Positions 7,063-8,721 of a stretch of DNA of 64,000 bases are shown in pieces. The notes beneath the pieces are model-generated. The model was not told the DNA's origin. It searched no databases and saw only the letters and a program-made list of their open reading frames with translations. The translations under genes and the position numbers were made by a program. Position 1 is the first letter of the stretch. The number at the start of each line of letters is the position of its first letter. The stretch comes from Enterobacter mori LMG 25706 (GTDB taxonomy: Bacteria; Pseudomonadota; Gammaproteobacteria; Enterobacterales; Enterobacteriaceae): positions 1-64,000 of the forward strand of contig NZ_GL890778.1 of assembly GCF_000211415.1 (NCBI RefSeq), written 5' to 3'.

Positions 7063-8721
7063 ATGCGTACCCCATACTGCGTCGCCGATTACCTGCTGGA
7101 CCGTCTGACTGATTGTGGAACCGATCATCTGTTTGGCGTGCCGGGCGACTATAACCTGCAGTTTCTCGACCATGTTATAGACAGCCCGGATATCTGTTGG
7201 GTGGGTTGTGCCAACGAGCTTAACGCGTCATATGCCGCAGACGGCTATGCCCGATGTAAGGGCTTTGCCGCGCTGTTAACCACATTCGGCGTCGGAGAGC
7301 TAAGCGCCATGAACGGGGTGGCGGGTAGCTTTGCTGAACACGTTCCCGTGTTGCATATTGTGGGGGCGCCGGGAATGGCGGCGCAGCAAAAAGGCGAGTT
7401 ATTGCACCCTACCTTAGGTGACGGTGAGTTCCGTCATTTTTACCATATGAGCGAACCTATCACCGTCGCGCAGGCGATCCTGACCGAACAAAATGCCTGC
7501 TACGAAATTGACCGCGTGCTGACCACCATGCTGCGCGAACGCCGTCCTGGCTATTTGATGTTGCCTGCGGATGTGGCGAAAAAAGCCGCGACACCACCTG
7601 TAAGCGCTCTCACCGTTAAGCCTGTTCACGCGGATAATGCCTGTCTCAAAGCGTTTCGTGATGCCGCCCGGAATCGCCTGGCCATGAGCAAACGGACCGC
7701 GCTGCTGGCCGATTTTCTGGTGCTCCGCCATGGGCTAAAACCTGCGCTGCAGAAATGGGTGAAAGAGGTGCCGATGGCACACGCCACCATGTTGATGGGG
7801 AAAGGGATTTTTGATGAGCGTCAGGCGGGTTTTTACGGCACTTACAGTGGTTCAGCGAGCGTGGAGCCGGTCAAAGAGGCGATTGAAAGAGCTGACACAG
7901 TGCTGTGCATTGGTACGCGGTTTACCGATACCCTGACCGCCGGGTTCACTCACCAGCTCACTCCTGCTCAGACCATCGAAGTGCAGCCTCATGCTTCCCG
8001 CGTGGGCGACGTCTGGTTTACGGGCATTCCCATGCTGCAGGCGATTGAGACGCTGGCAGAGTTATGCAAACAACATGTGCGTGAAAGCCCTGCACCCTCG
8101 ACACACAGTGGTTTTTCCTGGCCTGCAGAGGGCGCTTCACTCACGCAGGAGAACTTCTGGAGCACGCTGCAAACCTTCATTCGCCCCGGCGACATTATTC
8201 TTGCCGATCAGGGTACCTCGGCGTTTGGCGCGATCGATCTTCGCTTACCTGCGGACGTTAATTTTATCGTTCAGCCGCTCTGGGGGTCGATTGGCTACAC
8301 GCTGGCGGCGGCCTTTGGCGCGCAGACGGCATGCCCGGACCGGCGCGTGATTGTCCTGACCGGGGATGGTGCCGCACAGCTGACGATTCAGGAAATGGGC
8401 TCAATGCTGCGCGATAAGCAGCACCCGATTATCCTGGTGCTCAACAATGAAGGGTACACGGTTGAGAGGGCCATACACGGACCTGAACAGCGGTACAACG
8501 ATATCGCCCTGTGGAACTGGACGCAGATCCCGCAGGCACTGAGCCTGGATCCTCAGGCCGAATGCTGGCGGGTCAGTGAAGTCGATCAACTGGCGGACGT
8601 GCTGGAAAAAGTGGCGCACCATGAGCGGCTTTCGCTCATTGAGGTCATGCTGCCCAAAGCGGATATTCCCCCGCTGTTGGGCGCGATAACCAAAGCGCTG
8701 GAGGCGCGAAATAGCGCCTGA
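7063..8721 (+). CDS. ipdC: Indolepyruvate decarboxylase IpdC
   Basis: Thiamine-diphosphate enzyme converting indole-3-pyruvate to indole-3-acetaldehyde, the committed step of the indolepyruvate route to the auxin indole-3-acetic acid. The 552 residues match the E. cloacae enzyme in length. Asp29, Glu52 (activates the cofactor), the ThDP motif GDG...NN (about residues 434-462) and Glu468 are in place. At the catalytic HH pair, His115 is kept but residue 116 is Pro (codon CCT, 7408-7410). The ATG at 7063 has AGAAGGA before it and replaces a longer GTG start at 7033. A TyrR box lies upstream. It abuts yfeO tail to tail, with no visible terminator. Confidence 0.95.

Follow-up and report, generated by a model that had tools for sequence, protein, structure and literature searches.

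His-Pro in place of the HH motif in an otherwise ordinary Enterobacter indolepyruvate decarboxylase gene

The akr-ipdC locus and its codons 115-116

The stretch of DNA analyzed here, 64,000 nucleotides in length and referred to throughout as the window, carries an ipdC gene, encoding indolepyruvate decarboxylase, next to a divergently transcribed aldo-keto reductase gene. The features considered are listed below; "sister" denotes G034, the nearest genome found.

5888..6877, minus strand: akr, divergent aldo-keto reductase (PF00248, 244 bits)
6962..6979, no strand assigned: TyrR-box-like palindrome TGTAAA N6 TTTCCA in the akr/ipdC intergenic region, seen in a 10-sequence alignment
7063..8721, plus strand: ipdC, indolepyruvate decarboxylase, a complete reading frame of 552 amino acids with its start ATG at 7063
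7147..7149, plus strand: Asp29 codon, unchanged
7216..7218, plus strand: Glu52 codon, unchanged
7405..7410, plus strand: codons 115-116, CAC (7405-7407) and CCT (7408-7410), His-Pro and not His-His
7409, plus strand: base of codon 116 that differs from the sister genome, C in the window and A in the sister
8464..8466, plus strand: Glu468 codon, unchanged

The first-pass annotation of this DNA had placed a His-Pro pair at residues 115-116 of IpdC, and a direct reading of the sequence together with its translation bore this out. Its residue numbering is correct (with the start ATG at 7063, codon 115 falls at 7405), and its description of the rest of the gene as intact also stands, as the gene is full length and Asp29, Glu52, and Glu468 are all present. 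The intergenic palindrome, which is identical in the sister, is TyrR-box-like by comparison with the TyrR consensus. The window has the enterobacterial akr-ipdC arrangement, that is, a divergent akr with a predicted TyrR box between the two genes; such an akr beside ipdC is described as being under TyrR control in E. cloacae UW5 (PMC4374768).

The protein was assigned by profile matches. It scored 1012.9 bits against NCBIfam TIGR03393 (cut-off, 946), with positions 1-539 of the 539-position profile covered, and the three ThDP-enzyme domains PF02776, PF00205, and PF02775 were each detected above cut-off. Membership in TIGR03393 predicts indolepyruvate decarboxylation as the reaction of this family. 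The residues Asp29, Glu52, and Glu468 of the HH-motif decarboxylase set are all found in the window protein, whereas the motif itself (two successive histidines, 115-116 in EcIPDC numbering) reads His-Pro. Judged by these sequence characters, the protein is IpdC by descent and, as sequenced, lacks the HH motif.

Conservation of residue 116 within and beyond the genus

Sequences for comparison were drawn from (i) the matches in genus genomes, (ii) 64 loci of named genomes, many of them the same assemblies, and (iii) fill-in loci. All 61 genus genomes searched had a match to IpdC, two of them (G001 and G003) in the form of broken genes. The 126 loci with a match yielded 121 counted loci and 95 distinct proteins; the five left out were the window itself (L001), a second fetch of the sister (L140), and three broken genes (L118, L119, and L093). 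All 95 distinct proteins other than that of the window, representing the 121 counted loci, have His115-His116, with codon 116 read as CAC in 58 and as CAT in 37. The alignment of more Enterobacter IpdC sequences that the first-pass annotation had proposed thus found Pro116 in none of 95 distinct relatives. The notion that Pro116 is a common Enterobacter allele is rejected on this count, and with it the one case, a frequent proline, that the annotation had set against its own interpretation and that the alignment could address.

Among the other IpdC proteins, 156 of the 552 positions are invariant, and it is at residue 116 alone that the window protein differs from them. A departure of this kind is not rare: 14 of the 95 break an otherwise invariant site at least once. 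None of the departures in those 14 proteins falls at Asp29, Glu52, His115, or Glu468.

Several individual loci had features of their own. In the IpdC of Enterobacter sp. Bisph1 (L068), two sites that do not vary among the other sequences compared carry private changes, His98Gln and His125Pro; the second again replaces a histidine with proline, nine residues C-terminal to the HH pair. On the Leclercia adecarboxylata NCTC13032 chromosome (L093 and L119; G001), a frame change breaks ipdC, with seven stop codons in the matched stretch, and in L118 (G003) ipdC lies in two reading frames, split near residue 378. An apparent Ala-Pro in columns 115-116 of L093 and of one L119 piece, both from the same Leclercia chromosome, was discounted as a broken gene read out of frame. 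The pieces of L118 and L119 that lie in frame have HH, and the L093 alignment gives the out-of-frame piece only.

A wider sample was searched at the DNA level. A pattern encoding HH in its usual LGDG context matched in 148 of 392 Enterobacteriaceae genomes, and the same pattern encoding HP matched in seven, the window's and six others, although neither count is a census of ipdC, since both patterns overlook variants in the flanking residues. No IpdC match was found around the HP-coding hits of the six other genomes in this search of 392. A shorter HP-context pattern, matching in 109 of the 392, was discarded as too loose. In a sample of the class, nine of 143 genomes had a match, namely the window's own and eight others; the latter contributed nine decarboxylases of 31-37% identity, every one of which has HH. 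The presence of His116 in 95 of 95 IpdC proteins and of its counterpart in nine of nine distant HH-type decarboxylases indicates that the residue is strongly constrained. A near-match search of E. coli genomes returned no near match to IpdC, and plasmid-borne relatives were at best 67% identical.

A second copy of ipdC, which would make the mutation harmless, was not found in the window's genome, where the other seven matches are only 22-27% identical. Five of these seven distant ThDP paralogs could be aligned, and none has HH. A Ser-Pro in columns 115-116 of L002 was considered as a precedent and set aside; at 24% identity and beside gaps, we take it to be a misaligned enzyme of another class.

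The sister genome and the base at 7409

The sister is 97% identical in DNA to the window over 2 kb around ipdC, and the next genome is 84% identical. Codon 116 is CAT in the sister and CCT in the window; on the evidence of these two codons, a single A-to-C change at 7409 would suffice to convert His116 to Pro. The two ipdC genes differ by 48 synonymous and eight non-synonymous codon changes, with no gaps, and of the eight sites at which the proteins differ, P116 alone falls at a site invariant in relatives. The ratio of 48 to eight indicates that ipdC has been kept functional through almost the entire period since the two lineages diverged. Given such purifying selection, the change is probably recent, or else an error.

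We consider it rather unlikely, though well worth weighing, that the C at 7409 is an error of sequencing, of consensus calling, or of strain mixture, and that the organism has His116. Such an error would explain why one lone base, in the codon of a residue that ranks among the most constrained in the gene, is seen in no relative read. The assembly is moreover a draft of 23 contigs, with a completeness of 96.82 and a contamination of 2.87; within the genus sample, all but four of the 60 other genomes are more complete. Against an error, the window and the sister differ by 32 indels in 62,447 aligned bases, and none of these shifts the frame within the body of any of the 53 listed genes. Of the five that touch a gene, one is three bases long, two fall near a start defined by the longest frame (within the first 38 and the first 9 bases, respectively), and two are at a gene's 3' end.

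Private changes also argue against widespread error. At otherwise invariant sites, 19 private amino-acid changes lie on the window branch and 10 on the sister branch, of 4029 sites; at the DNA level, the window has 17 non-synonymous and 28 synonymous private changes vs 11 and 39 in the sister, and the excess of non-synonymous changes on the window branch is not significant (Fisher p = 0.12). This test drew on 11 genes and 9 or 10 further relatives, 18 of 29 listed genes having been skipped for want of coverage by at least five relatives within the fetched stretches. The assembly shows no strong indication of numerous wrong bases, while the higher private non-synonymous count on the window branch could conceal a few.

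Two other genes of the window drew attention in the comparison with the sister. The gene at 16868-18280 (plus strand) encodes a 470-amino-acid DosC-like globin-coupled diguanylate cyclase with Protoglobin, DosC middle, and GGDEF domains, and its counterpart is missing from the same place in the sister; listed genes from this one (16868) onward are covered by at most three of 10 other relatives in the stretches fetched. The gene at 358-2547 (plus strand) encodes a MASE1-EAL protein whose GGDEF match is weak (22.3 bits, short of the 23.8 cut-off). It is 91.4% identical to its sister counterpart, while its neighbors are about 96-98% identical, and its protein has nine private changes in the window and three in the sister; this divergence suggests recombination or faster change.

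Expected effect of Pro116 and comparison with known enzymes

The primary mutagenesis work on the HH histidines is reportedly that of Schenk 1997, Huang 2001, and Liu 2001. Mutagenesis and kinetics have marked these histidines as significant for catalysis, according to PMC6028569. In the pyruvate decarboxylase of Zymobacter palmae, PMC5012210 describes His113, the equivalent of His116, as contacting the substrate carbonyl and the cofactor N4', and His112, the first histidine of the motif, as keeping it uncharged and as helping to hold Asp26. We equated His112-His113 of that enzyme with residues 115-116 of the window protein through an alignment offset. Among the papers listed in searches of the PMC library, none dealt with a Pro variant of the HH motif.

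Structural models were also prepared. AlphaFold2 was run on the window protein and on that of the sister, in each case with an alignment of 21 collected sequences, and gave a mean pLDDT of 82.1 for the former and 80.6 for the latter. Residues 111-130 were weak in both, with block means of 62 and 66 in the window model and 52 and 55 in the sister model, such that around residue 116 the model of the HH-bearing sister is no better than that of the window protein. As confidence near residue 116 is low for both proteins, the effect of the proline is not readable from these models. A fold search confirmed the fold of the window protein and added nothing further.

On balance, we favor a real, recent missense change, His116Pro, in an ordinary Enterobacter ipdC, which probably lowers 2-oxo-acid decarboxylation strongly; a loss of activity is plausible by analogy with the equivalent histidine of pyruvate decarboxylases. 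An ordinary chromosomal ipdC, with its usual akr neighbor and TyrR-box-like site, would have gained the A-to-C change at 7409. The Pro116 enzyme would be expected still to fold and to bind thiamine diphosphate, because the cofactor-side residues are unchanged. With the second histidine of the motif lost, its contact to the substrate carbonyl and to the cofactor N4' would be gone; further, proline restricts the backbone of an active-site loop, and the one gained here would stiffen that loop. Decarboxylation of indolepyruvate and phenylpyruvate would then be strongly lowered, possibly abolished, and less auxin and less phenylethanol would be made.

It is improbable, in our estimation, that Pro116 is tolerated, with useful activity kept because His115, Asp29, and Glu468 carry the chemistry. 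A residue other than histidine is found at position 116 in none of the 95 distinct IpdC proteins and at the corresponding position in none of the nine distant HH-type decarboxylases, and a proline imposes its own constraint on the loop backbone. In favor of tolerance, the rest of the catalytic set is intact, and across the entire ThDP decarboxylase superfamily the equivalent position is mostly glutamine (Gln, 81%; His, 12%; PMC3534367), so that a histidine there is dispensable for ThDP chemistry in general. We allow a modest chance that the Pro116 enzyme retains activity.

The first-pass annotation had also raised a shift, as opposed to a loss, of activity, an idea that has no support of its own. 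Selection of Pro116 for a shifted reaction, for instance on another 2-oxo acid or in carboligation, seems very improbable: only the unchanged state of the other catalytic residues and the intactness of the gene speak for it, whereas the seven other differences from the sister all lie outside invariant sites, leaving the change without compensating ones, and no second strain or clade with Pro116 was found among the relatives compared. Even harder to credit is a species-fixed, ThDP-binding HP-motif decarboxylase kept by selection for an altered course, in which slow protonation of the enamine would lead to carboligation or to use of another substrate.

If the base is real, the missense change we favor would constitute a natural single-residue test of the second HH histidine in an aromatic 2-oxo-acid decarboxylase, and it would caution that an intact-looking, annotated ipdC is no proof of auxin production. 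It adds nothing new on gene families or mechanisms. The top match in the PDB, by sequence as well as by fold, is KDC4427 of Enterobacter sp. CGMCC 5087 (PDB 8zk6), which is 91% identical in the fold search and aligns with the window protein end to end (residues 1-552). The two have Ile542 in common, but KDC4427 keeps HH and the window protein does not. The part of PMC9045302 available to us describes the HH motif and an Asp-His-Glu set in KDC4427, reports that it acts on phenylpyruvate and indolepyruvate and that its activity all but disappeared in the E468A and E468L mutants, and names no mutant at residue 116.

EcIPDC of Enterobacter cloacae (PDB 1ovm) aligns with the window protein over residues 1-552 and shows 90% identity as a structural match. 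Asp29, Glu52, and Glu468 are common to both, whereas EcIPDC has His115-His116 and the window protein has His115-Pro116. The pyruvate decarboxylases of Z. palmae and Zymomonas mobilis are likewise HH-motif enzymes with the same fold; the second HH histidine of the Z. palmae enzyme, which touches both substrate and cofactor, is absent from the window protein. Set beside these systems, the window's ipdC is not a new kind of system; it encodes a known enzyme with a private, probably recent point change, or with a base error.
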